Assembly: GCA_030765605.1 (NCBI GenBank)
Contig: JAVCCG010000113.1
Location: 1 to 64,000, forward strand
Direction of reading: 5' to 3'
DNA: 64,000 nt
From: Candidatus Alcyoniella australis
GTDB lineage: Bacteria; Lernaellota; Lernaellaia; JAVCCG01; Alcyoniellaceae
Made by a program: the position numbers and the translations under genes. The notes below the pieces were generated by a model. It did not search any database. It had not been told where the DNA came from and was given only the letters and a program-made list of their open reading frames with translations. Shown one piece after another: positions 15,737-35,570 of the stretch. The first letter of the stretch is position 1. Each line of letters starts with the position of its first letter.

Positions 15737-16327
15737 ATGAATCCACATAGTATCATGCAATATGTCGTGGTAAACTCATCAAGCGATGCAGAATAAAAAG
15801 CATTGATTCAATTCCTTCGGAAAGTAGCTGATCCATTGGGTTGAATTTATGCGCAAAAGTGTGTCGAGATATATGATCTTGAAGCGCGATGCCTTGATTA
15901 CTATCAGGGTGGTAATGAGGAGGCCGATCACTGGTGCGATGAATTCTTTGACGATGAAACGCAACGAGCGGAATGTTGGGAAGCAGTCTTTGGGGGCGGT
16001 ATGACAAATTATGAAGTGCGACTAACGCCATATAATCCATGTCTATGGTTATCGCAAGCGAACGCTATGTGTTTTAACGAGCTGCCGCAATATATCGGGT
16101 TGAAGGCGCTGGAATTTTTGCCATGGTTGTCTATATTGGCAGAGCGTAAGGCCCTGAAAGTGGTTGCTGCCATTCTAGAATATATTACAAGAAATAAACT
16201 ACATTGGCTAATTCCCCCAAGCTTAAGTATAGTGGAGTCGATGTCCAAAATGGACATTAGAATTATTCTTAAAGAGCAGGCGGCATTCAATCCAGAAACC
16301 TTTGGCATAATAAATAGTGGAAAATGA
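15737..16327 (+). pseudogene. Cargo gene 1, first copy, with in-frame stops
   Basis: One reading frame runs from ATG 15737 (MNPHSIMQYVVVN) to the stop at 16327 but contains TAA at codon 20 and TGA at codon 36. After these it is open: CVEIYDLEARCLDYYQ, HWCDEFFDDETQ, and so on. It aligns over its length with the copy at 17841-18275 (HWLIPPSLSIVESM against HWTLPSSFSIVDDI). An internal ATG at 16001 could give a 108-residue protein. The paired cysteine and acidic stretch suggest a small soluble protein. No known family is recognised. The 3' end overlaps the next gene (ATGA). Confidence 0.6.
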
Positions 16328-17394
16328 AAAAGGCCATCCTGTACACGCTGATCATATCGATTGCGATTGCCGGGATTATCATCTGCCTGGGCACGATCGA
16401 TTACGGGTATCGCCTGCGCGTGGTGGATTCAATTGATCTGGATTATGAACCATATTCGATTCAATGTTTCTCCAACAACCGCTGTGTTCTAACCGCGTAC
16501 GAGAAGTTCGTGATAATAGAGGTTGACGGCGAACGCATCGCACCGCCCCGCTTCATCGATCATGACGGTGATCGTATGAGTGTTCTTTTTCCGTTGAGGG
16601 CCAGCCCTTCGCTGGATCGATACCTGTATTGCTTCCAAAATAAGATCGTGATTTTCAATGAATCGGGCATTGAGCAGACCCTCCCCTGGGAACACGCTGC
16701 GGCCGATTGGTACGATGATCAGAGCTTAGTGGCCATGATCGACGGCCAGGCTTATCTAGTTTCATTGCCGGATCCGGACAATCGTATCCCCTTCGAGGAA
16801 TTGAATGCAGTATTGCCGAAGATGTTTGCCGTCGATCCCGGCCGCTGCCAGGACGTAAGGGTAGAGGACGGCGCTGTTGTCGCATTGCGCGGTTTTGACG
16901 CGGCGGCGCTCTGGGATTTGGACAATCATACGCTGCTTGTAAGGGAATTCCCTGATCGTGTCTGCCTGAATGAGCCGCCCTTTGGCGTTCGTAAGGACGA
17001 GGTGCTGTGGGTGATTGGCCCTGTATTCCGTACCGCGTTGATGGATTGGAGGACTTGGGACCAGCAAAGCATGCCGCATCAATTTTGGAGAGCCTGGCAC
17101 GCGAAATTCCTCGGCGAAGAGGCCATCTATGGTCTTGATATGCCATCTTGGTTGTTTGGAGTGCAGGGATATCGCGTGGTATTTAATATCTTTACCAGGG
17201 ATAGCCGGTATTGCATTCGGAATGTTGAACTCCCGCAAGCCTTAGATTCCGCGGTGGTCAACAACGGCCACGGCATGCTGTTCGTCGGAGAGCGTCGAGT
17301 CGACCTGTGCCGCTTTGAGCGATCCAATCTGCTGACCGTGTGCTGGGAATGGGTGAGCATGACATTCCTCCAAGGCCTTGCAGCGGTTGAGTAA
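16324..17394 (+). CDS. Cargo gene 2, first copy: membrane-anchored protein
   Basis: 356 residues. One N-terminal membrane segment (residues ~5-24) is followed by an extracytoplasmic region of short beta-strand-like units (RLRVVDSIDLDYEPYSIQC, CVLTAYEKFVIIEVDGERI, LYCFQNKIVIFNESGIE) that resemble blades of a beta-propeller. No family is recognised. It is a clear paralogue of the protein at 18308-19414, and each copy follows a copy of cargo gene 1. Its codon use is more AT-rich than that of the flanking phage genes. The function is unknown; a surface binding or immunity role would be speculation. Confidence 0.65.
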   Translation: MKKAILYTLIISIAIAGIIICLGTIDYGYRLRVVDSIDLDYEPYSIQCFSNNRCVLTAYEKFVIIEVDGERIAPPRFIDHDGDRMSVLFPLRASPSLDRYLYCFQNKIVIFNESGIEQTLPWEHAAADWYDDQSLVAMIDGQAYLVSLPDPDNRIPFEELNAVLPKMFAVDPGRCQDVRVEDGAVVALRGFDAAALWDLDNHTLLVREFPDRVCLNEPPFGVRKDEVLWVIGPVFRTALMDWRTWDQQSMPHQFWRAWHAKFLGEEAIYGLDMPSWLFGVQGYRVVFNIFTRDSRYCIRNVELPQALDSAVVNNGHGMLFVGERRVDLCRFERSNLLTVCWEWVSMTFLQGLAAVE

Positions 17395-17556
17395 TTTACA
17401 AAGTCCATCCAGATGATCAATTGATGGAACCACGAAGAATCGGCCCGAGCAGACAAATAAAGTAACGACAATGAAGCAGAATAAGATGATCAAGCTGCTG
17501 ATAATACAACAATGAAGCAACGGCAAGTATATTCTCCCCATCAAGTAAAAGAATAC

Positions 17557-17585
17557 TTGACAGCCATACGCGAAACTGCTAGTAT
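17557..17585 (+). promoter_or_regulatory. Sigma-70-type promoter
   Basis: TTGACA (17557-17562), a 17-base spacer, then TAGTAT (17580-17585). It lies in a 302-base stretch without a gene (17395-17696) and points towards the truncated tail gene copy and the second cargo cassette. It may be the original late promoter of the phage genes. I see nothing else in this gap. Confidence 0.6.
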
Positions 17586-17696
17586 TGAGCTACAATGAAC
17601 AATGCTCTAAAGGCGGCAAGGTTCCCAGCCTGTCGCTGACTTCCTGTCCCCCTTCTCTCGAGAATAGTCATTACAGCCGACAACTCAGAGGCAATT

Positions 17697-17800
17697 ATGG
17701 ACAGTTCGGTCCCGCGCTTGATCTATGAGTCGTTGCAGGCGGCTGTGGCAACGGTCACCGAAGCCAACGGCTACCACTATACGATCGGCGAGACGTTTCT
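17697..17800 (+). repeat. 104-bp direct repeat, left copy
   Basis: This repeat matches 19505-19608 with about ten differences, nine of them in the first 21 bases. The two copies bracket the cargo cassette at 17841-19414. Such an arrangement could arise from insertion with duplication, from recombination between related phages, or from misassembly of mixed strains. Confidence 0.85.
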
Positions 17801-17828
17801 GTCTGTAATTAGGAACCAGCACAACTGA
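17697..17828 (+). pseudogene. Truncated copy of the tail gene at 19505
   Basis: The first 34 codons repeat the start of the intact gene at 19505 (LIYESLQ, AVATVTEANGYHYTIGETF). After base 17800 the sequence diverges and a stop follows within 28 bases. From base 22 on, all but one of 83 positions are identical to the intact copy, so the duplication is recent. The preceding leader GAGGCAATT resembles that before the portal gene. It sits directly before the second cargo cassette. Confidence 0.85.
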
Positions 17829-17840
17829 AACGGTGATAGC

Positions 17841-18275
17841 ATGAACGTGGAATGGATAATCCAGATGGTCGTTAGGACCTCCATAGAGGATGAAGAACTG
17901 GCCCGCCTAATATAAACGTTAAAGGAGGAGTCTGATCCACTGGATTTCGAGTTTGCTGATTTGTGTGACAAATTTGAAGATGATAATGCCAAGCAAGATT
18001 GCTATGACACGAATAAAAGTATAGAAAATCAGTGTCGCGAGCTAATAGCAGCAGAGGACTTTTGTGATGACCGAACGTATGATTATCTTGCGCTGAGAAT
18101 AGTTGAGATGTATTCTATATCAATACTCCTAAAAATTATAAAGCGTACCGGGGTGGAGCATATAATAATTGAGTTGCTTAAAAAATATCATTGGACATTG
18201 CCTTCCAGTTTTAGTATTGTAGATGATATATATACATCTGAGCTCAATAAGATCTTGGCGGGTGAGGAGTATTAG
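17841..18275 (+). pseudogene. Cargo gene 1, second copy, with in-frame stop
   Basis: From ATG 17841 the frame reads MNVEWIIQMVVRTSIEDEEL, then TAA at codon 25, then continues open to 18275 (SDPLDFEFADLCDKFEDDNA, HWTLPSSFSIVDDIYTSEL). The stop corresponds to CAA (Gln) in the first copy, a single C-to-T change. The first copy's two stops correspond to sense codons here. Translation from TTG 17961 would give 104 residues. Independent nonsense mutations in the same N-terminal region of both copies suggest selection against the full product or loss of need. Recoding is less likely. Confidence 0.6.
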
Positions 18276-18307
18276 GATAAAACCATTATTGTAATAATGG
18301 AACAAGA

Positions 18308-19414
18308 ATGAAAAGCAAGAAGCTTCATGTTTTAACAGTAGCCATAATAGCAATAGTTGTTACACCCATAATAATATTTTTTTTGCAAAGCCGGGTGCAA
18401 TTAGAAATATTGGATTCGGTCGAGCTTGATCGCAAGGTGTTCCGTTCTCAATGCACTGATGAAGGATGGTGTGTCATAGGAAGAGCAAAGCATTTCACTA
18501 TATTTGGCATTGTCAACAATCGCCTGCAGCGTATATCTGAAATACTGCCTGAAGACTGTAAGTATAGCATACCATCGGACTTTAACATCAGCCCTTCAAG
18601 GCAAAGAGTGCTTTACCGGTGCAAGGATGAAATTCTGTTTTTTAACAAAGACGGCATAGAAAACAGATTGGCAATCAGTGATGCAGACGTAGATTGGTAT
18701 GATGAAGATAATTTAATCGTAATTTTAGGTAATACCGTATATCTGATGCCAATAGCACGGCCGGAATCCAAAAAGCCGCTGGTCGGGCTGAGCATTGCGC
18801 TGGCAAAGATGATGTCGGAAGAACCGAACCTGATGATAGAGGTGGTGGCGACAAGCGAGGCTGTGTTGGTGATATACGGCCGTTTTAATGTTGCTCTTTG
18901 GCGGATAGCTGATGATGCTGTAATAACTAGGAAAATCCCTACGGTTTTCTGTCTGTATGAAATACCGGGCAAGGTTTATTACCGAGACTACGAATTGAAA
19001 TATCCTTTAGCAGGAGGGGAGATACTCGATATCTCCTCTGGACAAAAGGAAAGAGCCCCATTATATAGGGCGATGTGGAGGGATGATTTTCTGGGCGAGC
19101 GAGCTGCATACGGGCTGACGCATCGGTGCAATTCTTTTCCGCGCAATCTATTTCCCAGCCCGATAAACGCAGAGCGCTTTTTAGAGCAATATTATAATGA
19201 TCGCTATCTTGATATTTACCCTGATAGCGGCGGAGAATATAAATGCATCGAGGTTCAGCATCCTGACTTTTTCTCGCTGGAGATCTTCGATGATGGGAAT
19301 CACGTGTTGGCCATTGGAGGAAATACGGTCGTGCTTTATGAGATCGTAAAACGCAGTAGAATATATATGTTTTGGCATCAGGCAATTGTGAAGCTCAAAG
19401 AATTTATTAACTGA
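18308..19414 (+). CDS. Cargo gene 2, second copy: membrane-anchored protein
   Basis: 368 residues, paralogue of the protein at 16324-17394. An N-terminal membrane segment (residues ~8-27) precedes a strand-rich outer region (LEILDSVELDRKVFRSQC, WCVIGRAKHFTIFGIVNNRL, LYRCKDEILFFNKDGIENRL, WYDEDNLIVILGNTVYLMP). Shared features with the first copy are the paired cysteines near residues 50-58, NISPS/ASPSLDR and the WYD-D segment. The sequence is strongly AT-rich. The intact frame contrasts with its broken partner gene 1, so this half of the cassette may still be expressed. No known family is recognised. Confidence 0.65.
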   Translation: MKSKKLHVLTVAIIAIVVTPIIIFFLQSRVQLEILDSVELDRKVFRSQCTDEGWCVIGRAKHFTIFGIVNNRLQRISEILPEDCKYSIPSDFNISPSRQRVLYRCKDEILFFNKDGIENRLAISDADVDWYDEDNLIVILGNTVYLMPIARPESKKPLVGLSIALAKMMSEEPNLMIEVVATSEAVLVIYGRFNVALWRIADDAVITRKIPTVFCLYEIPGKVYYRDYELKYPLAGGEILDISSGQKERAPLYRAMWRDDFLGERAAYGLTHRCNSFPRNLFPSPINAERFLEQYYNDRYLDIYPDSGGEYKCIEVQHPDFFSLEIFDDGNHVLAIGGNTVVLYEIVKRSRIYMFWHQAIVKLKEFIN

Positions 19415-19504
19415 TAAACGACAAACGCCGCTAAATCCAGGAATAGTCTATAAAAGAACTATTTCTAATACATCGCGGCTGAACCCGAATTCACAGGATA
19501 TAGC

Positions 19505-19936
19505 ATGAGCAGTTCAACTCCCAGGTTGATCTATGAGTCGTTGCAGACGGCTGTGGCAACGGTCACCGAAGCCAACGGCTACCACTATACGATCGGCGAG
19601 ACGTTTCTACATTGGCCCGACCCCGGGGAGATGGCCACCAAGGCCCCCTGCGCCAACGTGATCACCAACGGACAGTCCATCGACAGCCAGGTGGGGGCCA
19701 ACTCGCGGATCCAACTCGCCTGGCTGGTGACCGCCTGCATCAAGGTCGAAAACTCGCCCTCGACCGCGGCCCTTGACCTGGAGCAGGACCTGCGCAGCGC
19801 GCTGACGGCCGATGTGCGGCGTGGCGGCTCGGCCACGTTGACCACCATCAACTCCAGTATGCATTCCTACGGCACGGACCGCCGCGTGGTCTACGTGGTG
19901 CTCCAGGGAAGCTGCGTGTACCACGTGGGAGGGTGA
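19505..19936 (+). CDS. Phage tail-completion/terminator-like protein
   Basis: 143 residues, GC-rich again, with no signal peptide. The pattern LIYESLQTAVATVTEANGY, a mid-region LAWLVTACIKV, and DLEQDLRSALTADVRRGGSA resembles small tail-terminator or neck proteins of long-tailed phages. This is a fold-level impression only. In usual phage order such a gene lies between capsid and tail tube; here it precedes TerS, so it may have been moved. Its 5' end is duplicated at 17697. Confidence 0.5.
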   Translation: MSSSTPRLIYESLQTAVATVTEANGYHYTIGETFLHWPDPGEMATKAPCANVITNGQSIDSQVGANSRIQLAWLVTACIKVENSPSTAALDLEQDLRSALTADVRRGGSATLTTINSSMHSYGTDRRVVYVVLQGSCVYHVGG

Positions 19937-19940
19937 TCCG

Positions 19941-20336
19941 ATGGCACAAGCGACAATCAAGGCTGATCAGCCGTCGATCGCCAAGACCGTGTGCAGCCGG
20001 ATTCTCGACCACCTCAGGCACGGCCTGACCGAGGAGGGGGCCTGCGGCAAGGCTGCGATCCCCTTTGAGGAGTATCAAAAATACAAAAACGCCGACCCCG
20101 CATTTCGCCGCGAGGTCGAGCTGGCGCAGTCAGCGTCCCGCGCCAACATCGAGCAGATGGTGATCGACAAGATCATGGAGGGCGACGCGCGCATGGCGCT
20201 CGACTATCTCAAGCGCCGCTACCCCAACCAGTGGGCCGGGCACGTGAAGCATGACAGCAAGCAAAGCGAAAACGAGCAAAGCGACCAAGTCATCGAAGTC
20301 ACCCTCGGACCCGACCCGTACTATCAGCGGCACTAA
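19941..20336 (+). CDS. terS: Terminase small subunit-like protein
   Basis: 131 residues. An N-terminal helix-turn-helix region (ILDHLRHGLTEEGACGKAAI) is followed by a helical segment ending ALDYLKRRYPNQWAGH, the typical close of phage TerS proteins. TerS binds the phage packaging site and recruits TerL. Its 3' end overlaps the terL start by 86 bases, a common arrangement. The assignment rests on context and this motif. Confidence 0.7.
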   Translation: MAQATIKADQPSIAKTVCSRILDHLRHGLTEEGACGKAAIPFEEYQKYKNADPAFRREVELAQSASRANIEQMVIDKIMEGDARMALDYLKRRYPNQWAGHVKHDSKQSENEQSDQVIEVTLGPDPYYQRH

Positions 20337-21648
20337 ATCGCAGATCGCCCAGCGGCTGCTGGCAAACCCGGCCGAATTTCTGCGATTTCTCTATCCGGAG
20401 CACGAGTTCCGGCCGTTTCACTGCCAATGGCTCGAGCTGGTCGCAAACAATCGGCTGACACTGATCCTCGCGCCGCGCGGCCATGCCAAGACCACGGTGG
20501 TCACAATCTCGGAGATCGTGCGCAGGCTGCTGGCCGACCGCGATTGCCGGATATTGCTGGCGTCAAACACCCAGGATCAGGCCCGGGCGATCTATCGCAC
20601 GGTGCGCGAGCTGCTGCAAAAGCAGATCACGCCCTGCGGGCTGTTCGGCGATCCAATCGAACGCTCCATAATCAACGAACTGTGGCTGACCAAGCGTAAA
20701 AAGATCCACAAGGAGGCGAGCCTCACTGCATTGGGCGTATTCGGCGCGCTAACGCTGCGCCATTTCGACCAGATCTTTGTGGACGATGCCCTGGACTTCG
20801 AGAACACTCGCAGCGCGACCCAGCGCAAGAAGTTCCGCGAGTGGGTGGGCATGACCCTGCTGCCGACCCTTGAGCCCGGCGGGCACATCCACTGGGTGGG
20901 CACGCGCTATCACAACCAGGATTTCTACGGCGCGGAGCTGCTCGACCAGGCGCGCTACCCCACCCTGGTCTGGAACCAGGGCAGCCATCGCGCACTGCTC
21001 GAGGATGGCGGCGCATTGTGGCCCGAGCGCTTCTCGGTCCAGGAGCTGGAACAGATCAGGCAACAGGTCGGCTCGACGATCTTTGCCGCGCAATACCTCA
21101 ACGACACCCAGTTTATGCGCGGCACGATCTTCCGTGAGCAGTGGTTTCGCTACTTTCACGAGCCACCCCAGGACCCGGCGATCTACATCGGCTTTGACCC
21201 GGCGATCTCGCAATCCGAGCAGGCCGACTACTCGGCCCTGGCCGTGGTCGGACGCACAGGCCAGGACCTGTACGTGCTCGAGGCCTACAAGGGGCGCTGG
21301 ACCTTTGACGAACAGCTGCGGCTGTTGGCCCTGGCCGCGCAAAAATGGCGGCCGCTGACCATCGGCATCGAGGACGTGGCGTACCAGCGGGCTCTGATCG
21401 AGACCTGCCGAAACAACGGCTTGCCCGTTGTGGCCGTGCCCAGACGCACGGACAAGGTCTCACGGGCCTACGTGATGCAGGGGCTGTTCGAGTCCGGCAG
21501 GATCTACTTCCCGGCCGCGGGCCGACTGCACGAACTCGAGGCCGAGCTGACCGCGTTCCCCGAGGGCGAACACGACGACCTGTTCGACGCCCTGGAAACC
21601 GCGATCGGACAGGCGCAACGCCCCCATGTTGGGATAATTTTAATCTGA
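20251..21648 (+). CDS. terL: Terminase large subunit
   Basis: 465 residues. The ATPase domain has Walker A LAPRGHAKTTVV and Walker B DQIFVDDAL. The nuclease domain has YIGFDPAISQSEQADYSALA, GIEDVAYQRALIE and EHDDLFDALETAIGQ. Together they drive DNA into a capsid and cut it. The normal sequence stops at AIGQAQRP; the last residues HVGIILI are encoded by AT-rich DNA that belongs to the following cargo. The 3' end has therefore been replaced, though all catalytic motifs are kept. Confidence 0.9.
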   Translation: MTASKAKTSKATKSSKSPSDPTRTISGTKSQIAQRLLANPAEFLRFLYPEHEFRPFHCQWLELVANNRLTLILAPRGHAKTTVVTISEIVRRLLADRDCRILLASNTQDQARAIYRTVRELLQKQITPCGLFGDPIERSIINELWLTKRKKIHKEASLTALGVFGALTLRHFDQIFVDDALDFENTRSATQRKKFREWVGMTLLPTLEPGGHIHWVGTRYHNQDFYGAELLDQARYPTLVWNQGSHRALLEDGGALWPERFSVQELEQIRQQVGSTIFAAQYLNDTQFMRGTIFREQWFRYFHEPPQDPAIYIGFDPAISQSEQADYSALAVVGRTGQDLYVLEAYKGRWTFDEQLRLLALAAQKWRPLTIGIEDVAYQRALIETCRNNGLPVVAVPRRTDKVSRAYVMQGLFESGRIYFPAAGRLHELEAELTAFPEGEHDDLFDALETAIGQAQRPHVGIILI

Positions 21649-21706
21649 TTTTTCGAAATGCCTTTATTCAAAGTCTGGGCTTTATAAGTACGGCCTCTTT
21701 TGTTAA

Positions 21707-22204
21707 CATCACAGTCTGTATGATGATAATAATACTGGCAGGTGGGCTTATTATAAAAAACTAGTTAGCACACCCTTTGGTAAGGCTTTAGCCATTGGGC
21801 AAGGAGTTTCTTTTTTTCTGCTTGTTTTTCTTCCACTTTTGGGGCGCGCAGTGCCGTTACTAGCAGAGCATGCAGGCCATTTGTTGTGGGCAATCCCCTT
21901 AGGCGCATTTTCGGTGTTTTTTCTGTTGTTACCTCTTGATAGGCCTTATAAAACATATCTTGATATTGAAAATATCCTTACTATAGAAATTGGTTTATTA
22001 AAGAATCGAATTCAGAAAATCGAACATAATAGAAATGAGATGCAAAAGCAACTAGACGAATACGACCCAGACGCAGCACGTTTGTTAATAAGAAGAAAAA
22101 GAGAAGAGGCTCATAATTGGGAGAATAGATTAAAAAGCGCTTCCAACGATGATAGTGAGATGTACGAGCTGATCGCGGTGATGATGAATAAAATTGCTGC
22201 ATGA
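21707..22204 (+). CDS. Cargo membrane protein with coiled coil, start unclear
   Basis: The frame is open from 21707. It encodes two membrane segments (VSFFLLVFLPLL and LLWAIPLGAFSVFFLLLPL), then a charged helix likely to form a coiled coil (LKNRIQKIEHNRNEMQKQL). No ATG lies ahead of the first membrane segment; a TTG at 21839 would remove it. The gene may have lost its 5' end at the junction with terL. The 3' end overlaps the next gene (ATGA). The DNA is AT-rich. No family is recognised. Confidence 0.5.
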   Translation, partial: HHSLYDDNNTGRWAYYKKLVSTPFGKALAIGQGVSFFLLVFLPLLGRAVPLLAEHAGHLLWAIPLGAFSVFFLLLPLDRPYKTYLDIENILTIEIGLLKNRIQKIEHNRNEMQKQLDEYDPDAARLLIRRKREEAHNWENRLKSASNDDSEMYELIAVMMNKIAA

Positions 22205-22629
22205 ATAATAGCGCACTTGTGAAACCCATGAAATGGCCGCTGGCTGTTCATTGTATTCTGTTATTTATTATCATCGGCGTACACTGCTACTTGCTGCATC
22301 CTGTAATTGCGCTAAGCGTGACAAGCTTTCTGGCAATGGTGATTTTCAGCTATCTGATGGTCAGCGATCCGAATCGGCGTGGAAGCGAAATTCTATTATT
22401 ATTCGGATTGTACATGGTTGCTCAGTGTATTTGTCTGGCAGGCAACGGCTTTTTACTGCCCGTAACTTCATTTGAACCCTCCATGGCGATTCATAGTGCT
22501 GAGGGAATGAGTAATCCGCCCATGGACTTCACACACTATTTGATCAGCCAGCTCGCCACATCGTACATGATTTTCTCATGGGTGATCGTGTTGGTAATAG
22601 CGATTAAGTTGTATTCGAAACGTATATAG
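22201..22629 (+). CDS. Cargo four-segment membrane protein, copy A
   Basis: 142 residues with four membrane segments (about residues 12-32, 36-58, 68-90 and 115-138). It is paralogous to the next gene: KPMKWPLAVHCILLF against KSMKWLVAIHCMLLF, and FSYLMVSDPNRRGSEILLLF against FSYLMINAPGRTRNEIIVLF. No known family is recognised. The gene is translationally coupled to the preceding one. Tandem paralogues of small membrane proteins are typical of immunity or defence cargo, but nothing in the sequence proves this. Confidence 0.6.
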   Translation: MNNSALVKPMKWPLAVHCILLFIIIGVHCYLLHPVIALSVTSFLAMVIFSYLMVSDPNRRGSEILLLFGLYMVAQCICLAGNGFLLPVTSFEPSMAIHSAEGMSNPPMDFTHYLISQLATSYMIFSWVIVLVIAIKLYSKRI

Positions 22630-22685
22630 AATCAGCGATGTCAAGGGTGCGATGCGGACGTTGCTAAGGAATTACGAGTAGCAGT

Positions 22686-23111
22686 ATGGGGAACAGCACA
22701 GTCGGGAAATCCATGAAGTGGCTCGTGGCAATTCATTGCATGCTGTTGTTTTCTATCACCGTTGCGGATTGCTACTACATGCATCCTATAATCGCTTTAA
22801 TCGTAACTGCCCTGGCAGCGATGGTGCTTTTCAGTTACCTGATGATCAATGCTCCCGGCCGCACGAGAAACGAGATTATCGTGTTGTTCGGATTGTATAT
22901 GGCAGCGCTTGTCATATACCTAATGGGCAGCGGTCTGCTGATGCCCGGGACCGTCTTGGAAACGGTTTTGGAACCACGCCATATTAGGAATCTGCATAAT
23001 TCCGGGCCAATGCCCTATAGGATAAGCAGGCTCGTCACAGCCTACATGATGCTTTCGTGGCTGATCGTGCTGGCAATCATCATCACCGCTTTGCGTCGGA
23101 AGCGCAGGTAA
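22686..23111 (+). CDS. Cargo four-segment membrane protein, copy B
   Basis: 141 residues, paralogue of the preceding gene with the same four-segment layout (MKWLVAIHCMLLFSITVADC, IIALIVTALAAMVLFSYLM, LFGLYMAALVIYLMGSGLLM, AYMMLSWLIVLAIIITAL). It ends 80 bases before the portal gene. Sequence composition is intermediate between cargo and phage genes. The function is unknown. Confidence 0.6.
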   Translation: MGNSTVGKSMKWLVAIHCMLLFSITVADCYYMHPIIALIVTALAAMVLFSYLMINAPGRTRNEIIVLFGLYMAALVIYLMGSGLLMPGTVLETVLEPRHIRNLHNSGPMPYRISRLVTAYMMLSWLIVLAIIITALRRKRR

Positions 23112-23190
23112 GGATCGGAAAAAGCAACTGACGAGTCCCTTTGAATAATCCGCGTTAGACAGCTTTCCAAACAATCGAGAGGCAATTGCA

Positions 23191-24273
23191 GTGGGCAGAA
23201 TACGCGACCTGTTCCGCAGGGCTGAGAAACGCCCTAATGACAAGTATTTCCGCGCAGCCGCGGCCGAGGTCTGGCCCTACGAGGTTCAGCACGGCCGGCC
23301 GCGTCCCGACGATTTGGCCCAGGGGCTCGAGACCTCGGCGGCCCACGTCTGGGTCTACGCCTGCACCAATGCGGTGGCGCGTTGCGCCGCCCGGGTGCCG
23401 ATCGAGATCCTCAAGCCCGCGGCGCCGCGGGGACAACAGGTCACCGCGCTGCCCAGCGACCCGGTGGCCCGGCCGTTCCTGGCGGTCAACGACTTTATGT
23501 CCCAGGCCGAACTGATCGAGCTGACCGTGCTGCATTTGCTGCTCACGGGCAACGCCTACTGGGATATCGAGCGCCAGACCGGCGAGATCTGGCCGTTGCG
23601 GCCCGATCGGGTGAGCGTGGTGCCGCACTCCACCGAGTTCGTCAGCGGCTACCTCTACCGCAACCGCGGGGTGACCGTACGCTTTGACGTGGACGAGGTG
23701 GTGCACTTCAAGCTGCCCAATCCCAGCGACCCGTGGTACGGCCTGGCGCCGCTACGCGCGGCGTTCGACTCGGTTCAGGCCGACCGCTACGCGATTTTGG
23801 GCAGCAAGCAGTTCCAGCAACACGGCGCGGTGCCCGCGGGCATCCTGACCGCGCCCCACGCCCTGGACAGCGAGCAGGTCGAACGCCTGCGCGGCGAGTG
23901 GAAGCGGCTCTATGGCGGTCCCAAGGGGCGCCAGCGCGTGGCCGTGCTCCAGGGCGGCATGGACTTCCGCACGATCAGCATCAGCGCCCGCGACGCCGAA
24001 GTGATCGCCCAGCGCAAGCTCAACCGCGAGGAGATCTGCGCGGTGTTCGGCGTGCCGCCGGCGGTTGTCGGCCTGTTCGAGTACGCTAACTACGCCAACG
24101 CCGATGTCCAGGAGCGGCTGTTCTGGCGCAACACCGTGATCCCCCACGTACGGCGCATTGCCCAGCGCCTCAACGAGTCCGACGTGCTGCCCCAGGGCTG
24201 GCACGCCGAGCCCGACCTGAGCGACCTGGCAACGCTGCTCAGCGATCAGCCGACGCAAGGCCGCTCCAACTAA
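23191..24273 (+). CDS. Phage portal protein (HK97 type)
   Basis: 360 residues, GTG start. Family features include VWVYACTNAVARCAARVPIE, LLTGNAYWDIERQTGEIWPL, VDEVVHFKLPNPSDPWYGLA, GVPPAVVGLFEYANYAN and ERLFWRNTVIPHVRRI. The portal forms the ring through which TerL packages DNA. The family is usually 380-430 residues, so the C-terminal end is somewhat short (ends LLSDQPTQGRSN). It lies between two cargo stretches, separated from terL by 1.5 kb. Confidence 0.88.
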   Translation: MGRIRDLFRRAEKRPNDKYFRAAAAEVWPYEVQHGRPRPDDLAQGLETSAAHVWVYACTNAVARCAARVPIEILKPAAPRGQQVTALPSDPVARPFLAVNDFMSQAELIELTVLHLLLTGNAYWDIERQTGEIWPLRPDRVSVVPHSTEFVSGYLYRNRGVTVRFDVDEVVHFKLPNPSDPWYGLAPLRAAFDSVQADRYAILGSKQFQQHGAVPAGILTAPHALDSEQVERLRGEWKRLYGGPKGRQRVAVLQGGMDFRTISISARDAEVIAQRKLNREEICAVFGVPPAVVGLFEYANYANADVQERLFWRNTVIPHVRRIAQRLNESDVLPQGWHAEPDLSDLATLLSDQPTQGRSN

Positions 24274-24290
24274 GGCTTGGGGAGGATTCC

Positions 24291-24740
24291 ATGTCTGACC
24301 TGAGCAAAATGATCCAAGAAGCGATCGGCGAGGCGCTCGACGAGATCCATCGAGAGATGGCGGCTGAGCAGTCACTTGCTAACACCGTGAAAGTGGTTAA
24401 TGTCACTGATTTTGATTCTAAGCACTGGTGGAGGGGTGATAAGTGGTATCAAAGCAATATGTCGATGGCGCAGCATGAGCAGCCTCTCATTGACAAGCTC
24501 TCTCCCACATTCTCAACGGATGACATGGAAAGGGCTTTTGCAATCGCAGATAGCCTGAGCAATCGTATAGTGGTAAAATATCCGCGTGCAACTTGGATTG
24601 TTCCAGGATGTGGTAATCTAGCAGGGGAACTCCAACGCATGCTGTATAAAGCCTTGACAAAGGCTGATCTCGTAGAAAACTGCAAGGCATATTATATAGA
24701 GGGGGCTTTAAAAATGTTTACCCGCATGCCTATGTCATAG
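24291..24740 (+). CDS. Chimeric protein: phage N-terminus, AT-rich cargo C-terminus
   Basis: 149 residues. A strong GGAGG ribosome site and the first ~27 codons (MSDLSKMIQEAIGEAL) are GC-rich like the portal gene. From about 24372 the DNA turns AT-rich and encodes a different globular domain (VVNVTDFDSKHWWRGDKWYQ, ATWIVPGCGNLAGELQRML). The boundary looks like replacement of a phage gene's 3' part by cargo. In temperate phages the gene after the portal sometimes carries a variable toxin domain. This arrangement is similar, but no toxin motif is recognised here. Confidence 0.6.
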   Translation: MSDLSKMIQEAIGEALDEIHREMAAEQSLANTVKVVNVTDFDSKHWWRGDKWYQSNMSMAQHEQPLIDKLSPTFSTDDMERAFAIADSLSNRIVVKYPRATWIVPGCGNLAGELQRMLYKALTKADLVENCKAYYIEGALKMFTRMPMS

Positions 24741-24854
24741 TACAGAGTTATTATTGCGAAAGAGTGGAAGGGAAAACAGTGTGTTATGTTCGATATAGGC
24801 AGTACGACCCCTGGCTGGCGAGGGGACTTTTTTTAAGAAAGGCGATTAAAAAAG

Positions 24855-25280
24855 ATGTATATTAAACATTTCCTCAGGTTTTCAGCGGGATTGATGATAC
24901 TGTTCTTTTTCGTTTTTTTCTCTCTGATCGACTGGACGCTCGGACTTTTCTTTCTCGAAATAAGCGTTGCTTTGGTATTGGGGTGCTATCTCTATTTGCG
25001 AGCGGATGCTTACGCAAAGAGCCCGAGCAAATATCTCGTTGCGATGTTTATATATCATGCCTGTCTGGGGCTGATGGTGTTTTCTGTTTATCACCCGGTG
25101 TTGGGCGAGTACTTCATCGAAACGGTGATGGGGGAGCCAGCTAAATTGATGGTCTCGCTGTGGTATGCGTTCGTCTTCGTCGTGTTAATTCAAGTGGTCA
25201 GTTTTATAATATGGCTGATCATTAAGTTTTTTCGCAAAACAGTAGGTATGATTGCTTCAAAACCACGGGATGGAGAGTGA
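24855..25280 (+). CDS. Cargo membrane protein starting MYIKHFLRFSAG
   Basis: 141 residues with about four membrane segments (residues ~8-28, 31-50, 58-78 and 98-122). It lies 114 bases after the chimeric gene. Its first codons are repeated, with changes, at 25307 and 25392. No family is recognised. Its position after a variable C-terminal domain would fit a cognate immunity protein; that is inference. Confidence 0.6.
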   Translation: MYIKHFLRFSAGLMILFFFVFFSLIDWTLGLFFLEISVALVLGCYLYLRADAYAKSPSKYLVAMFIYHACLGLMVFSVYHPVLGEYFIETVMGEPAKLMVSLWYAFVFVVLIQVVSFIIWLIIKFFRKTVGMIASKPRDGE

Positions 25281-25306
25281 CGCAAATCAGGTAGGAAAAA
25301 AGTGAT

Positions 25307-25391
25307 ATGCATATTAAGCATTTCCTGCGGATAAGCATCAGCCTGATCCTGCTGGGGATCATCATTTGCGGATTCTTTTTAAAAGGTGACA
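25307..25391 (+). pseudogene. Fragment related to the 24855 gene
   Basis: It starts ATGCATATTAAGCATTTCCT and encodes MHIKHFLRISISLILLGIII, matching the N-terminal membrane segment of the 24855 protein. Similarity ends after about 25 codons, where a third copy of the 5' end begins. The frame runs on without sense into the protease gene. It is probably a decayed paralogue. Confidence 0.55.
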
Positions 25392-25451
25392 ATGTATATC
25401 CGCCATTTCCTCAGGTTTTCAGCGGGATTGAAGAACCGACTAGGACGCTGA
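25392..25451 (+). pseudogene. Second fragment related to the 24855 gene
   Basis: It encodes MYIRHFLRFSAGLKNRLGR and stops. Over its first 40 bases it is nearly identical to the start of 24855. It lies 60 bases before the protease start. With the previous fragment it shows repeated recombination at one 5' sequence. Confidence 0.6.
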
Positions 25452-25511
25452 AGCAAGTATTCAAACGAAAACAAGCAAGCTACATTCATTCCAACAGGAC
25501 AGTTGAGAACC

Positions 25512-26474
25512 ATGCGAAACAAGATCTATTCCAGCGGCCGGGTGCGGGTGGTCGACGCGGATAACTTCGTCACCGAGCACGTGATCTCCACCGAGGACGT
25601 TGACCGGGACGGCGAGGTGGTGGTCTTCGACGACCTGGAGCGCGCCGCGCGCAATTTCGTCAACAATCCGGTGGTGTTGTTTTTTCACAACGCCGATCCG
25701 GCCACGCCCAAGCTGCCCATCGGCCGCAACCTCGAGCTGCGGCGCGAGCAGGGCCGGGTGGTGGCCCGCACCCAGTTCGCGGTGCGCGAGGACCAGAGCG
25801 GGTTCACGCGCACGTTGTGGAACCTGCACGTGGGCGGCTATCTCAACGGCGTGTCCATCGGCTTCCGCCCCGAACGGGTCGAGGTCGTGGGCCAGGGCCG
25901 CGAGGCAGTGCGCGTGGTGCATGTGGACGAGCTGCTCGAGTACAGCCTGGTGCCGATCCCGGCCAACCCCGAGGCGCTGACCTCCATGGCCAAGGCCCTG
26001 GCCGATCGCCGCCGGGTCCAGCTCGGCAAGCCCTCGGCCTATGTCACGGGCTTTGCCACTGCCGACGCCGCCCTAAACGCCCTGAGCGGCGAGCGCGATC
26101 CTGGCCAGCCCGACGCCCAGCGCCGTGCAGTTCGACCTCGACGACGCGTCGGAGATCAGCGAGCACGACCTGCTGCTGGTGCCGCTGTCCACGTTGCGGG
26201 CCGTGCGTGTGGACTCCAAAAACAGCGACACGCTGTGCATCAGCCCCGCGTTGCCCACAGCCCCGGCCGGAGGCGAGACCATCGCCGCGAGTCTGGTCTA
26301 TCGGCTCAACACCCGACCGACCTCCTCGTTCACCATCACGCGTGCCGGCTCGTTTTTCTGCGAGTGGGCGGCGGGATGCTGGGTCGATTCGATCAGCCTC
26401 AGCGTATCCAGCGGCTCCGAGCCGCGACTCAAGCTCGCGGGCGGATACGCGGACAAGTCGTACGCACACTCTGA
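25512..26474 (+). CDS. Prohead protease (HK97 family), fused 3' end
   Basis: Residues 1-~190 fit HK97-type prohead proteases: VISTEDVDRDGEVVVFDDL, NPVVLFFHNADPATPKLPIG, WNLHVGGYLNGVSIGFRP and LLEYSLVPIPANPEAL, containing the catalytic His (FHN) and Ser (SIGF) regions. The protease matures the capsid scaffold. After about 26090 the frame reads through the next gene's DNA out of frame and encodes an Arg-rich nonsense tail. The major capsid gene that should follow is absent. The ATG at 25512 is preferred over TTG 25503. Confidence 0.75.
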   Translation: MRNKIYSSGRVRVVDADNFVTEHVISTEDVDRDGEVVVFDDLERAARNFVNNPVVLFFHNADPATPKLPIGRNLELRREQGRVVARTQFAVREDQSGFTRTLWNLHVGGYLNGVSIGFRPERVEVVGQGREAVRVVHVDELLEYSLVPIPANPEALTSMAKALADRRRVQLGKPSAYVTGFATADAALNALSGERDPGQPDAQRRAVRPRRRVGDQRARPAAGAAVHVAGRACGLQKQRHAVHQPRVAHSPGRRRDHRRESGLSAQHPTDLLVHHHACRLVFLRVGGGMLGRFDQPQRIQRLRAATQARGRIRGQVVRTL

Positions 26475-27156
26475 CGCGTTGAGCCAGACCGTGGGAACCA
26501 CCGACGGGACCACGATCTACGTCGAGCACCCGTACAAGTTCCGCGCCGGCACGGACGTTCCGTGCTGGGTCCAGATCGACGACGAGGTGCTCAAGGTCAC
26601 GGCGGTCGATCTTGATACCGGGGCGCTGAGCGTGGAGCGCGGAGTGCAGGGGAGCGTGGCTGCCACCCACGAACTGGCCGTAGCGGTTGAGCCCTACACG
26701 CCGACTCCGACGCTGTCCGACGCGTCGCCGTCCAGCGGCCTACTGGGCAAGCTGCGCTACGCCGACTCGACCTCGAGCGGCCTGGACCTCTACGCCACGC
26801 AGATTGAGATCGAACTCGAGAACAAGTGCAAGGCGATCAACGGCCCGTTCGGCACGGCCATCCCGCAGGGCTTTGTCAGCGGTGAGAAACGCGAGGTCAA
26901 CGTGCGACTCGGGCTGTACCTGACCCAGGACCAGGCTGAGCAGTGGGGCGCGGCCTTCAGCCGTGCGGACGTCGAGGACGTGATGCTGCAAATCGGCGTC
27001 AGCGCCGGGTCGGTGCTGGCCGCCTGTGTGCCCAAGCTACATCTAAAGCCGGTCGACATCGGAATCGAGGACGCCGAGGAGATCGTGGTCACCCTCGAGG
27101 GGCGCGCCCTGTGCGGCTCGGAGGGCAACGACGAACTGATCCTCGCTTTTCTTTAA
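26125..27156 (+). CDS. Phage tail tube-like protein, 5'-truncated
   Basis: 343 residues from GTG 26125; the frame is open only from 26086 and has no ribosome site, so the true 5' end seems lost. Strand-rich sequence is typical of tail tube or sheath-adjacent proteins. The last ~120 residues (GLDLYATQIEIELENKCKAI, VNVRLGLYLTQDQAEQWGA, VPKLHLKPVDIGIEDAEEIV, VTLEGRALCG) form a domain common to major tail proteins. It precedes the tail chaperone by 10 bases, as expected for a tail tube gene. Translation may depend on the fused protease frame or may fail. Confidence 0.6.
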   Translation: MQFDLDDASEISEHDLLLVPLSTLRAVRVDSKNSDTLCISPALPTAPAGGETIAASLVYRLNTRPTSSFTITRAGSFFCEWAAGCWVDSISLSVSSGSEPRLKLAGGYADKSYAHSDALSQTVGTTDGTTIYVEHPYKFRAGTDVPCWVQIDDEVLKVTAVDLDTGALSVERGVQGSVAATHELAVAVEPYTPTPTLSDASPSSGLLGKLRYADSTSSGLDLYATQIEIELENKCKAINGPFGTAIPQGFVSGEKREVNVRLGLYLTQDQAEQWGAAFSRADVEDVMLQIGVSAGSVLAACVPKLHLKPVDIGIEDAEEIVVTLEGRALCGSEGNDELILAFL

Positions 27157-27958: not shown

Positions 27959-28891
27959 ATGGCGCAGACTATTGCCAAACAGATCGAGATCGAGATCCTC
28001 GCCAAGGACCGTACGCGCGGTCTGCTTTCGCGGATCAACGCACTGATGCTCACGGCCCAACGCCGGGCCCAAGAGCTGGGTCAGAGCGCGGGCAAGGCGG
28101 CCGAAACCCTCGGCGCGCTGGGCGCGGGCTTGGATGCCGCGGCTGTTCAGCGCTACGGCGAAGGGCTGGTACTGGCCCGTTCCGAGCTCGAGACGCTCGA
28201 CCAGCGGGTGACCGCGTTGTACCAGAGTTCGCAGATTCAGTTCTCGCTGCTCAGCGAAACGGTCTACAGCGTGGGCCGTTCTTTCGACGCGGTGGGCAAC
28301 ACGTTTATCTCGGGCTTTGCCGATACGCTGATCTACGGCAGCTGGGACGCCGAGCGCGCGCTCAAGGGGCTGGGGCGCACGATCCTCACTACGCTGCTCG
28401 GCGCCCTGAGCCAGTGGGCTGTCAAGCAGCTGGTGATCAAGAGCCTGGAGTCGGCACAGATCGCGCTGCTCGCCGTGGAGCAGGGACAGGTCGCTGCGCT
28501 GACCCTGTCGTACAATGCCCTGGCCGCGGCCAAGCTCATTGCGTTGGGGCCCGCCGGCCTACTGCTGCACGGTGGCGGCGCAGTGATGCACGAGGGTGGA
28601 CCTGTGCGACGCGCACATTCCGGATTGCGCGCCGACGAAGTCGGGCCGTTCATTTTGCAGCGCGGCGAGTTCGTGATGCAGCGCAGCACGGTTCAGTCCA
28701 TCGGCTCGCAGCGCATGGCATATATCAACCAGACCGGGCAGCTGCCGCAGTCCAGTCCGACCATCAACATCACGGTCAACGCCGGCCCGGGAAGCGACGG
28801 CCGCAGGATCGGCCGCGACCTTGCTGAAGAGCTGTCCTGGCAAAGCCGCACCGGTCGGTTGCAGCTCGACCGCCGGGCGATCAGGGGTTAA
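27959..28891 (+). CDS. Short tail tape measure protein
   Basis: 310 residues. An alpha-helical N-terminal part (EILAKDRTRGLLSRINALML, AQELGQSAGKAAETLGALG) is followed by a hydrophobic helix region (TILTTLLGALSQWAVKQLVI) and a C-terminal segment HEGGPVRRAHSGLRADEVGP with FILQRGEFVMQRSTVQS, seen at the C-terminus of many tape measure proteins. Its short length predicts a short tail. It follows the frameshifted chaperone as expected. Confidence 0.75.
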   Translation: MAQTIAKQIEIEILAKDRTRGLLSRINALMLTAQRRAQELGQSAGKAAETLGALGAGLDAAAVQRYGEGLVLARSELETLDQRVTALYQSSQIQFSLLSETVYSVGRSFDAVGNTFISGFADTLIYGSWDAERALKGLGRTILTTLLGALSQWAVKQLVIKSLESAQIALLAVEQGQVAALTLSYNALAAAKLIALGPAGLLLHGGGAVMHEGGPVRRAHSGLRADEVGPFILQRGEFVMQRSTVQSIGSQRMAYINQTGQLPQSSPTINITVNAGPGSDGRRIGRDLAEELSWQSRTGRLQLDRRAIRG

Positions 28892-28894
28892 AGC

Positions 28895-31800
28895 ATGTCT
28901 GTAAACGACCGCAAATGGACCGAGGCCAACGGGATCATCCCGGCTGGCTATTCGTCCGGCACCTGTCATCAAGTGCTCAAAGACAGCACCGACAGCAGCC
29001 TGTTCTATGCCTGCTACGGCGGCGCGGGGGGCGGGATTGTATCTATTGACTCGGACGCCGACTCGGACAATGGCGCGCAGATCGCCTATGCCGACCTGGC
29101 AAACGCCTGCGCCCTGACACAAGACGATGATTATCTATATATCGGTACTGGCGAAGCATCGGGCACTGGAGTACATCGTATCGCCAAGAGTTACCTTGCC
29201 GTGGCGGGTCCGGGCGGCGAACAAACAGCACACCTCGCTGTGTTCCTTTCGACTAGCACGGGTGAGCCGATTTACTCAAATGAGATCGGCGTGCGCGGGC
29301 TGGCGTTCAACGATAATCTTGACCACCTGGCGATCAGTTGCGGGCGGCTGTCGATCTACGACATGGAGACGCCGGGAGCCGAAGCGGTCTACGACAGCAG
29401 CGCATATTCTCCAGCCAACGGCCCGGTGGTTGCGAGTGGTGACAAGGCGTGGTGGGTCTTTAACGGAGACCGGGGCAAGGTCTGCGCAATCGACTTGACC
29501 ACGCCCGCTGCCGACGATTTCCGTCCGGACGAATGCCTAATCGATCCCAGTGACGACTTCGGCGATGCGTCGTTAGATGCGGCCCGCTGGGCCTTATACA
29601 CAGAGGGCAGCCCGTCCTCATATTCGGCGACAGAATCCGGCGGGGCGTTGACTCTCGCCCTCACCCATCGCAACAGCAGCGGGGACGACGTAATCGGAGT
29701 TGGGGGGCAGAGCTATTTAGGGGCAGCTGACTTCTCGGTTGCTGTGGACTTCGGAGCGTTGACCACCAGCGCGATCGGAGCATCCGACCTGCGGTCGATC
29801 AACCTTTACGTCCGGATCTTTGATGCAACTTGGTCGGCAAACCTGACCGGCGTAATCAGGGCGCACAAAAACCCAACGACCGAATGGGTCCAGGCAACGT
29901 TTTACCGCGGAGGGGCGCTGATATTTGACACGTCAATCAGCCCCGCGGCGTGGAGTGCCGGGGTCAAACTTTATATCGAGCGGGTAGGAACAATCGTAAC
30001 ATGCTCATACGACACCGGCGGCGGCAAGACTACGATCAACAGCAACACGCACGCTGACAACAACAACTATGACCGGCTGTGGATCGGCGGAATATATGCG
30101 ACAGACCGCGATTTAACAGCGCCATACGACTCTACCATCTCCATTCCCGTCAACGACGTGGCTGTGGTCACAACGGCTGGTTATGCCGCCCTTCCGACCG
30201 GAACGATCAACGACATCGCCTTTGCACCGGGCACCGGCACCGACATGCTGCTATTGGCGACCAACGCCGGGCTGTACAAGGTGGACACTGACACAAGCTC
30301 CGCCTGGGGCAGCTACGAGGACCTGAGCGTTGAGACGTTCGGTCAGTCCGGCTCGGGCGCGGATCACGAGATTCTGCACGGCGCGTCCGATGCGTGCGCC
30401 TGTTGCGACGTGGACAGCAGCGCCACGGGAAGCAACGGGAACACCTTCGTAGGCACCGACAAAGGCGTGTCTGTGATCGACCTGTCGGACGATACGCTGG
30501 TCGGCTGGTTCGACAGCTCGGGCGGCCAGTGGGCAGGCGATAGCATCTCGCAGTCGACCAATAACGACGCCATCGCCTGCCTGTCGATTGCCAACAATTC
30601 CAACTCCAAATTTGCCTATGGCGGATCGTCCGGACTGATCACTCCGGACGTCGACGCGCCGGGCGAGCCACAGGCCTTCGGCTATCAGGGCGATGATACG
30701 GATTGCATCCACACGCGCTGGGACCAGGCCACTGACCCGGACGTGGACTGCTACGAGATCGAGCGCAGCGGCAACGACGACGAGGGTACGTGGTATCGAC
30801 TCAAAGACGACTTCACGTGGGCCACGTCGGGCGATTACTTACAGATCGACGCCCAGGACGAGCTGTGCAGCCTGCGGATCACCGACCTGTCCACCGGCCG
30901 CTATAAGGTGCGAGTGCGGACGCGGGACTACGCCAACAACGCCGGGGACTGGACGACCTCGAGTTGGATTTACATTGGCGTTCCCAGCTCGCTGTCGATC
31001 TCGATTCTCTCGGGCTCGACCCGCACTACCACCCGCGCGGTTACGCTCACGGTCAGCGGCTACAGCCACGCCGACGCCGGGCCGATCGCCAACTACGGCA
31101 TCGATCAAATTTCCTTAAGCGACGACGATACCAACTGGGACGAATGGCGCGAGTTCACCGCAGGCGACTCCAACGATTACGACTACAACCTGCCTGTTGG
31201 CGACGGCAAGAAGACCGTGTACGTCAAGGGCCGCGACGAGGCGCAAAACGAGTCCAACAGCTATAGCTCGAGCATCGTCCTGTCCGAGGCGGGCGCCGGC
31301 TCGCTTGGCAACTACGCGGACAATGTACTGCTGGCGCTTGAGGGTACGCACTTTGAGGGCGACAACGCCACGCTGACCTCGGACTCCGAGGCCTCGGGCT
31401 ACGAGGACGACAACGTGCTCAGCGACGCCCTGGGGCAGACCTGGCGCACGACCAACGGTTCGGGCGTCAAGTACCTGCGCTTCGACCTGGGTTCGGCCAA
31501 GACGATCCATGCTGTAGCGATCCTCGGGCACAACTTCCAGTCGTCGGGCATCACGGCGCTTGATCTGAAGCTCCAAGCCAACACCACCGACACCTGGCTG
31601 ACGCCCGCGCTTGAGGTCGACCTATCGGACTATCGAGCCCTGGACCGCATCGTCTACGTCACCGGCGGCGAGACCTATCGCTACTGGCGCATTCGGATGT
31701 CCGCGACCGGGATCGTCGGCTACCTCGAGATCGGCCGGGTGGTGCTGACTTCAGCGTTCCAGCCCCTGTTCAACTTCGACGACAGCTACACCTACGATCT

Positions 31801-32110
31801 TACCGACCCCTCGCCGATCAGCCGCACCGAGGCCGGACACCGGCGCGGCAAGGTCCGCGACGTGCGGCGCGGCTATCATCTGGGCTGGAGCAAATCGATC
31901 ATGACCCTGGCCGACCAGGAAACTCTCGAGGATGCCTACTGCCAGTGCGGCGTACTACGGCCCGTGCTGGTGATTCCCGATCCGAGCACCACGGCACGGG
32001 CCTGCGCAACGGGCGTCTACGGACATCTGAGCAGCCCGCTGAGCTTTCGGCGTAGCGGCCCGGAGGACTACGCAGGCCTGACCCTTGACGTTGAGGAGAT
32101 CACCGGATGA
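28895..32110 (+). CDS. Large multidomain phage tail protein (FN3, F5/8C-like)
   Basis: 1071 residues. The N-terminal ~580 residues have repeated strand units (LADQ-type turns, TDKGVSVIDLSDDTLVGWFD) like a beta-propeller with an inserted LamG-like region. Residues ~590-690 resemble fibronectin type III (EPQAFGYQGDDTDCIHTRWD, YKVRVRTRDYANNAG). Residues ~815-950 resemble a discoidin or F5/8C domain (YLRFDLGSAKTIHAVAILGH, YRYWRIRMSATGIVGYLEIG). The last part, with RRGYHLGWSKSIMTLADQ, is like phage tail proteins. Such domains bind surface sugars or proteins, so this may be the receptor-binding tail component. The 3' end overlaps the next gene. Confidence 0.6.
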   Translation: MSVNDRKWTEANGIIPAGYSSGTCHQVLKDSTDSSLFYACYGGAGGGIVSIDSDADSDNGAQIAYADLANACALTQDDDYLYIGTGEASGTGVHRIAKSYLAVAGPGGEQTAHLAVFLSTSTGEPIYSNEIGVRGLAFNDNLDHLAISCGRLSIYDMETPGAEAVYDSSAYSPANGPVVASGDKAWWVFNGDRGKVCAIDLTTPAADDFRPDECLIDPSDDFGDASLDAARWALYTEGSPSSYSATESGGALTLALTHRNSSGDDVIGVGGQSYLGAADFSVAVDFGALTTSAIGASDLRSINLYVRIFDATWSANLTGVIRAHKNPTTEWVQATFYRGGALIFDTSISPAAWSAGVKLYIERVGTIVTCSYDTGGGKTTINSNTHADNNNYDRLWIGGIYATDRDLTAPYDSTISIPVNDVAVVTTAGYAALPTGTINDIAFAPGTGTDMLLLATNAGLYKVDTDTSSAWGSYEDLSVETFGQSGSGADHEILHGASDACACCDVDSSATGSNGNTFVGTDKGVSVIDLSDDTLVGWFDSSGGQWAGDSISQSTNNDAIACLSIANNSNSKFAYGGSSGLITPDVDAPGEPQAFGYQGDDTDCIHTRWDQATDPDVDCYEIERSGNDDEGTWYRLKDDFTWATSGDYLQIDAQDELCSLRITDLSTGRYKVRVRTRDYANNAGDWTTSSWIYIGVPSSLSISILSGSTRTTTRAVTLTVSGYSHADAGPIANYGIDQISLSDDDTNWDEWREFTAGDSNDYDYNLPVGDGKKTVYVKGRDEAQNESNSYSSSIVLSEAGAGSLGNYADNVLLALEGTHFEGDNATLTSDSEASGYEDDNVLSDALGQTWRTTNGSGVKYLRFDLGSAKTIHAVAILGHNFQSSGITALDLKLQANTTDTWLTPALEVDLSDYRALDRIVYVTGGETYRYWRIRMSATGIVGYLEIGRVVLTSAFQPLFNFDDSYTYDLTDPSPISRTEAGHRRGKVRDVRRGYHLGWSKSIMTLADQETLEDAYCQCGVLRPVLVIPDPSTTARACATGVYGHLSSPLSFRRSGPEDYAGLTLDVEEITG

Positions 32111-33894: not shown

Positions 33895-33960
33895 TCAACT
33901 GATTAGCAATACTTAATAGTTCGAGTTGTTAAGAATTCCTTAACTGCTCAGGAGCAAGCA

Positions 33961-34650
33961 ATGACCGAGCGGCATGACAGCGAAAACCATGAATACACCG
34001 AGATCAGCACCCTCACCACGGGCAATCCGACCAAGGCCTCGGAGGGCAACGCGCTGCGGACCAACGTCGAATATGCCCTTGACGCCTCGGTGCAAGGGCT
34101 CAGCCCGGATGCCAGCTACAACAGCAGCCAGGCCGACGCGGCCAAGTCGGGCTTTGCGATCATCGATGTGTACGCGGTATGCCAGGAGGGCAACGGCGCG
34201 CAGATCCTCGACCCGGACAACCTGCCGTTCGATCTGGACGACAGCGATCAAATGAGCCTCTACGATCGGTTCATCACGATCGAGGTGATGTGGGTCTGTA
34301 ACAATGCTGCGGACAAGACGGCAATGTGCAAGTTCCTGCCCGGCGGTGAGTACGACGACGCATTCTCGACCGGCAGCACGCAAAGCCACGGCACGATCGA
34401 GCATGGGACCAACGTAGTGCGCCTCTGGACCGGACCGGGGCAGTTGGATGTCACCACGGGCAAGTACGCGGGAACGGCGAACTATACGCTGGAAGATGTC
34501 TACACAACAACCGGCACCTGGACCGCCTGGGTGGACACGGACGATGACAACCTGTACCTGCGCGCCGACGATACATCGACCTACTCTTACTGGTTCGCCT
34601 GCGCAATCCGGATCACGGTCGGCCCGCGCACCACGCATTACAGCGCGTGA
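33961..34650 (+). CDS. Phage structural protein of unknown role
   Basis: 229 residues with a CAGGAG ribosome site. There is no signal peptide or membrane segment. The C-terminal half is strand-rich with Thr and Asp (YTLEDVYTTTGTWTAWVDTD, YSYWFACAIRITVG). I do not recognise a family. It lies between tail genes and the lipoprotein pair, so it may be a tail fibre or decoration protein. Confidence 0.5.
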   Translation: MTERHDSENHEYTEISTLTTGNPTKASEGNALRTNVEYALDASVQGLSPDASYNSSQADAAKSGFAIIDVYAVCQEGNGAQILDPDNLPFDLDDSDQMSLYDRFITIEVMWVCNNAADKTAMCKFLPGGEYDDAFSTGSTQSHGTIEHGTNVVRLWTGPGQLDVTTGKYAGTANYTLEDVYTTTGTWTAWVDTDDDNLYLRADDTSTYSYWFACAIRITVGPRTTHYSA

Positions 34651-34699
34651 TTGAATTATCTATACGCAGCCCGCATATTGTTCCCAGGAGGACGGGAGC

Positions 34700-35545: not shown

Positions 35546-35570
35546 CAACCTGACAACCGCGACCACGTGG

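Follow-up and report, generated by a model that had tools for sequence, protein, structure and literature searches.

Accessory genes of the moron type, as described from lambdoid phages and Pseudomonas Mu-like phages, lie between phage genes that are otherwise adjacent, have a low GC content, are absent from relatives and have been proposed to benefit the host (PMC4378225). Such regions of genomic plasticity deviate in composition at fixed plastic sites, and GC valleys of 46.3% were reported in genomes of 64% GC (PMC4378225). Prophages are also known to carry toxin/immunity cassettes (PMC5562445, PMC11699363). The MuF polymorphic toxins belong to the head module, where their gene lies directly behind the portal gene and is followed by one or more small genes (PMC5576092, PMC11699363), while the SitA/SitI elements of Mx-alpha in Myxococcus are several divergent paired-gene cassettes on prophage-like DNA, of which sitI1 shows SUKH-family homology (PMC5562445). 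The third comparable group, small multi-TM prophage proteins of very diverse sequence, includes the HK97 gp15 moron and P22 SieA, an exclusion protein of 162–164 aa with three TM (PMC10883804).

The locus described here lies in a window of 64,000 nt, the whole stretch of DNA analysed, on contig C113 (JAVCCG010000113.1) of a 4.29-Mb MAG of Candidatus Alcyoniella australis (157 contigs, 98% complete). It shares with the morons the AT-rich accessory genes inserted between phage genes, and differs from them in its two-gene cassettes, tandem diverged paralogues, three sites within the packaging module, apparent scars in the form of truncated 5' ends of phage genes, and a prophage without capsid genes. 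The gene E directly behind the portal gene (Table 1) and the small gene downstream of it recall the MuF toxins. Membership of that group was rejected because a Pfam profile search for the MuF domain (PF04233) gave no match in E or in the genome, and the locus differs also in having no known toxin domain and a four-TM downstream partner. Like SitA/SitI, it carries several divergent gene pairs on prophage DNA, but no lipobox-bearing protein, known toxin domain or SUKH-family homology was recognised in the cargo. By TM prediction, D1, D2 and F are small multi-TM prophage proteins, as are SieA and gp15; unlike these, they follow a first gene as its partner and occur in duplicate, and no sequence homology to them was shown. 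The accessory-gene phenomenon itself has thus already been described (PMC4378225), and what the locus adds are the orphan gene families and the exchange scar.

Table 1. Coordinates of the prophage genes and cargo genes in the window.
Feature	Position	Strand	Description	Basis
A1	15737..16327	+	Cassette 1, first gene; pseudogene with two in-frame stops, ~196 codons, no TM	A2 homology, TM prediction
B1	16324..17394	+	Intact, 356 aa; single N-terminal TM ahead of a beta-strand-rich body, propeller-like at low confidence (mean pLDDT 40)	
tt'	17697..17801	+	Copy of the 5' end of the 19505 phage gene, truncated after 35 codons	Nucleotide match
A2	17841..18275	+	Cassette 2, first gene; pseudogene with one in-frame stop	A1 homology
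B2	18308..19414	+	Intact, 368 aa; one N-terminal TM; B1 paralogue	
19505 gene	19505..19936	+	Phage gene, tail-terminator-like, 143 aa	Function by position; homologue in prophage L105
TerS	19941..20336	+	Terminase small subunit	phrog_4102 E 5e-7
TerL	20251..21648	+	Terminase large subunit	phrog_38 E 3e-88
C	21628..22204	+	First gene of island 2; TM and coiled-coil-like; probably frame-shifted near 21764	Translations, TM prediction, GC3 0.36
D1	22201..22629	+	142 aa, four predicted TM	
D2	22686..23111	+	141 aa, four predicted TM; D1 paralogue	
Portal	23191..24273	+	Portal protein	PF04860 E 3e-70; phrog_2662, phrog_12
E	24291..24740	+	Hybrid ORF, 149 aa; first 27 codons GC-rich and phage-like, remainder AT-rich; no TM	GC3
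F	24855..25280	+	141 aa, four predicted TM	
F'	25307..25391	+	Truncated 5' copy of an F paralogue	
F''	25392..25434	+	Truncated 5' copy of F	
Protease	25503..26080	+	Prohead protease, deletion-joined to truncated tail-tube gene	PF04586 E 4e-5; phrog_617, phrog_80
Tail tube	26125..27156	+	Tail-tube-like protein, lacking ~115 N-terminal residues relative to G002	phrog_290; alignments with four relatives
Distal genes	27959..37492	+	Further genes of this prophage: tape-measure-like, distal tail, tail tip, fibre-like, amidase, spanin-like	

Profile searches and gene position identified a siphovirus-type late region at 19.5–37.5 kb, extending from the tail-terminator-like gene through the spanin-like gene. 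The PHROG search gave no match for the 19505 gene itself, and its homologue in prophage L105 is located downstream of tail-tip and endolysin-like genes. The tail-tube gene begins at residue 119 of its G002 relative, and as the protease gene runs into this 5'-shortened gene, a deletion has taken the capsid region together with the start of the tube gene. No HK97-type capsid (PF05065) was matched in this genome and no phage-type integrase was found for this prophage, the only two integrase-family genes of the genome being on other contigs. The prophage is cryptic, which the first-pass annotation had not noted; deletion has cost it the capsid and a portion of the tail-tube gene. The end of the late region adjoins a tRNA-Leu at 37531, the sole Rfam match; integration into this tRNA was considered and dropped, because the left end of the prophage has no att-like repeat.

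The comparison set consisted of six genomes of the same class, all from other families, and statements on the whole MAG draw on searches plus a 278-kb sample of its sequence. The tail module is common to five of the six class relatives. Homologues of the tail-tip protein (32107) were likewise found in five of six (G001–G004 and G006; L101–L106), mostly with other tail genes near. The corresponding prophages of G002 and G004 have a head module that is GC-rich and unbroken, with capsid-like genes where expected, the capsid call being positional and without a profile match. A domesticated tail particle as a class-wide explanation was rejected, as the prophages of these two relatives possess TerL and capsid-like genes themselves. 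In their head modules a two-domain glycosyltransferase-like gene adjoins the portal gene (L104:7514–9532, identified by PHROG matches, and L102:13203–15101, a homologue 40% identical to it). A portal 40% identical to that of the window is present in L107:7831–9018 (G030), where no further phage genes were recognised within 20 kb. Elsewhere in the window, long aspartate runs occur in proteins at 13382–13756, 14970–15560, 35108–35545 and 56433–58721, several with lipoprotein-like starts, and such proteins are present also in L103 and L122. Tandem related lipoprotein-like genes at 4863–8317 resemble, by eye, formylglycine-generating-enzyme-type domains.

A two-state composition HMM delimited three AT-rich islands with sharp borders, at 15667–19542, 21626–23249 and 24370–25530, having GC contents of 0.452, 0.442 and 0.435 against 0.63 around them. 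The first island lies before the tail-terminator and TerS genes, the second between TerL and portal, and the third between portal and protease. The first-pass annotation had placed cargo at four boundaries of the packaging module, each stretch AT-richer than its flanks. Both the interleaving with the tail-terminator-like, TerS, TerL, portal and protease genes and the difference in composition (GC 0.44–0.45 vs 0.63) were confirmed, whereas the two sites listed separately behind the portal and ahead of the protease form one continuous stretch, and the number of islands is three. Four stretches of less than 48% GC, merged to these three islands by the HMM, take up most of 15.4–25.7 kb, while 1-kb windows below this value make up 1.6% of the 278 kb sampled from the same genome; the clustering is not due to chance. 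The other AT-rich islands in the sampled stretches have ordinary gene content. One AT-rich ORF, at L110:102–509, looks by eye like a four-helix-bundle (Avd/S23-type) protein.

The island genes differ in composition from the flanking phage genes, and all the cargo is encoded on the + strand, in the same direction as the late phage genes. In most of the related viral contigs where both were found, TerL and portal lie almost side by side, which identifies island 2 as an insertion. The head modules of the G002 and G004 prophages lack such AT-rich islands, although their head genes differ from those of the window. As in morons, the cargo therefore separates genes adjacent in related phages, as seen from the TerL/portal adjacency and, elsewhere, from the island-free class relatives. 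In viral contig L061, TerL, portal and protease are each ~2 kb apart, and extra genes may sit there likewise. Promoter-like sites, scanned with a consensus that may not suit this lineage, numbered 16 against 10.6 ± 3.8 expected, which is at chance level, and terminators were fewer than expected; flanking promoters and terminators like those of morons are thus not clearly seen.

The cassettes in the islands consist of an AT-richer first gene followed by a membrane-anchored or multi-TM gene, often as tandem paralogues. The first genes are the AT-richest (GC3 0.36–0.46; second genes 0.45–0.67). The pairs or sets at 16324/18308, 22201/22686 and 24855/25307/25392, earlier listed as tandem paralogues, were all recovered as such: B1 and B2 are 28% identical over ~346 codons, D1 and D2 48% identical, and F' and F'' match F at 60 and 88%, respectively, each over 43 nt. 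Missing from that list was the paralogy of A1 with A2, which are 32% identical and can be aligned from start to end across the stops (Smith-Waterman score 121 vs at most 51 in 300 shuffles). Since A1/A2 and B1/B2 are both paralogous and in the same order, the repeated unit of island 1 is the two-gene A-B pair. D1 and D2 have a dN of 0.41 against a dS of 1.77, indicating that both have been kept under purifying selection. D and F were also considered as one family, which was rejected as no relationship was detectable. The description of the cargo as membrane proteins holds for D and F, with four TM, and for B, with one, but not for A and E, which have no predicted TM.

A probable trace of exchange is seen at the 19505 phage gene. 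The truncated copy tt' matches the 5' end of this gene over 104 nt at 90%, 83 nt of these at 99%, and the identity changes from ~12/21 at the start codon to 20–21/21 and then to 4–6/21 past the break, reaching chance level to either side of the tract. Despite the near-identical tract, the cargo units preceding the two copies are merely 28–32% identical. The same phage gene is thus associated with two different cargo units in one locus. Because the 83-nt tract adjoins such divergent cargo, the arrangement is best explained by recombination using the phage-gene homology, rather than by tandem duplication in place; a possible alternative is an old duplication combined with an 83-nt gene conversion. 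No second genome with these phage genes but other cargo was found, and the internal duplicate is the sole comparison. The exchange scar in this locus is unusually clear. F'' is a scar of F, comparable to tt'.

Another junction between phage and cargo sequence is suggested within E, in which GC3 is 0.74 over the first 27 codons and 0.46 thereafter. This composition, the one basis for the call, points to a phage-like start fused to a cargo 3' part; no homologue of the first 27 codons was found. Of the two sites where the first-pass annotation had cargo following a truncated or fused phage 5' end, the one at 17697 is upheld by the nucleotide match, and the fusion at 24291 is indicated by composition only. 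E is one in-frame hybrid and a single member, with no second copy in the genome. Its position, directly behind the end of the portal gene at 24273 and ahead of F with its 141 aa, is that of the MuF toxins.

The first genes appear broken or hybrid in four of four cases (two stops in A1, one in A2, a probable frameshift in C and a probable fusion in E), while all five full-length membrane genes (B1, B2, D1, D2 and F) are open. The decay that had been noted for several cargo genes is evident from these stops and from the truncation of F' and F''. The split between broken first and intact second genes would arise by chance once in 126 cases, or with a probability of 0.045 when F' and F'' are counted, both values being post hoc and dependent on the inferred calls for C and E. 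The asymmetry fits the decay of toxins with retained immunity, and equally morons with a useful membrane gene.

No trustworthy homologues of the cargo were found in Pfam, PHROGs, NCBIfam or PADLOC, among PDB sequences, in phage and plasmid records and IMG/VR, or in the own genome and 384 genomes, and the cargo occurs nowhere else in the own genome. One match in G326 to a TM stretch (E 4.5e-4, 27% identity) was discarded. Neither a toxin domain nor an immunity family was matched in the libraries or among the PDB sequences, and structure predictions of the cargo (pLDDT 40 and 45) were too poor for a fold search. The earlier statement that none of the families was recognised therefore stands across all these searches, but the proposal of an undescribed system went too far, as morons have been described (PMC4378225).

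The evidence modestly favours moron-type accessory cassettes gained by recombination, which probably encode membrane proteins protecting the carrier; this function of the second genes is suggested by their topology, size and position. The locus would then be the packaging module of a cryptic siphovirus-type prophage with three moron-type accessory islands, into which cassettes arrived or were swapped by recombination through phage-gene homology, subsequent events leaving the truncated 5' ends. At the live-phage stage the second genes may have shielded the lysogen from within or across the cytoplasmic membrane, conferring either immunity to the product of the partner gene or superinfection exclusion. 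After the loss of the capsid genes the first genes would have decayed, with the membrane genes lasting longer. The gene order, the size of D and F (141–142 aa), the duplicated second genes, the AT-richness and breakage of the first genes beside intact second genes, and the in-frame hybrid at 24291 in the place of MuF toxins (PMC5576092) would also suit a polymorphic toxin/immunity locus, with A, C and the 3' portion of E acting as toxins or toxin domains, B, D and F serving as membrane immunity proteins, and the pairs having recombined onto or beside phage 5' ends. This reading is possible at a lower probability, as no toxin or immunity family was recognised, A and C have no trafficking domain, MuF is absent from the genome searches, and B, at ~360 aa and partly propeller-like, would be a large immunity protein. 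What stands of the effector/immunity-like diversifying cargo first proposed is the foreign tandem cargo, the recombination anchored in phage genes and the immunity-like four-TM proteins. The full form of that idea, exchangeable two-gene toxin/membrane-immunity cassettes of orphan families swapped at packaging-gene 5' ends at several fixed sites and leaving truncated 5' ends, is unlikely.

It is doubtful that the islands are relics without shared function, that is, mixed foreign, AT-rich DNA taken up by a prophage already dying, then duplicated and decayed. The deletions around the capsid and tail tube, the several broken cargo genes and the ordinary AT-rich islands elsewhere in the genome agree with such an origin, but four AT-rich stretches in 10 kb against the 1.6% background do not, nor do the identical gene order of both A-B units, the location of all the cargo on the late-gene strand, the purifying selection on D1 and D2 and the open frames of all five full-length membrane genes. 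An assembly artefact or MAG chimera is highly improbable: the MAG has 157 contigs and the 83-nt near-repeat could mislead a short-read assembly, but three islands would need several errors with the same phage flanking each, tt' is bordered on both sides by sequence of its own, and the cargo is found in no other place in the genome.

Should the cassettes be ordinary morons carried by a dead prophage, the locus contributes orphan families and no new principle. If exchange at phage genes has occurred, the 83-nt tract would directly document how the cargo moves, and phages of this poorly sampled class would hold, in their packaging module, a reservoir of orphan membrane-protein families, possibly also toxin/immunity families.
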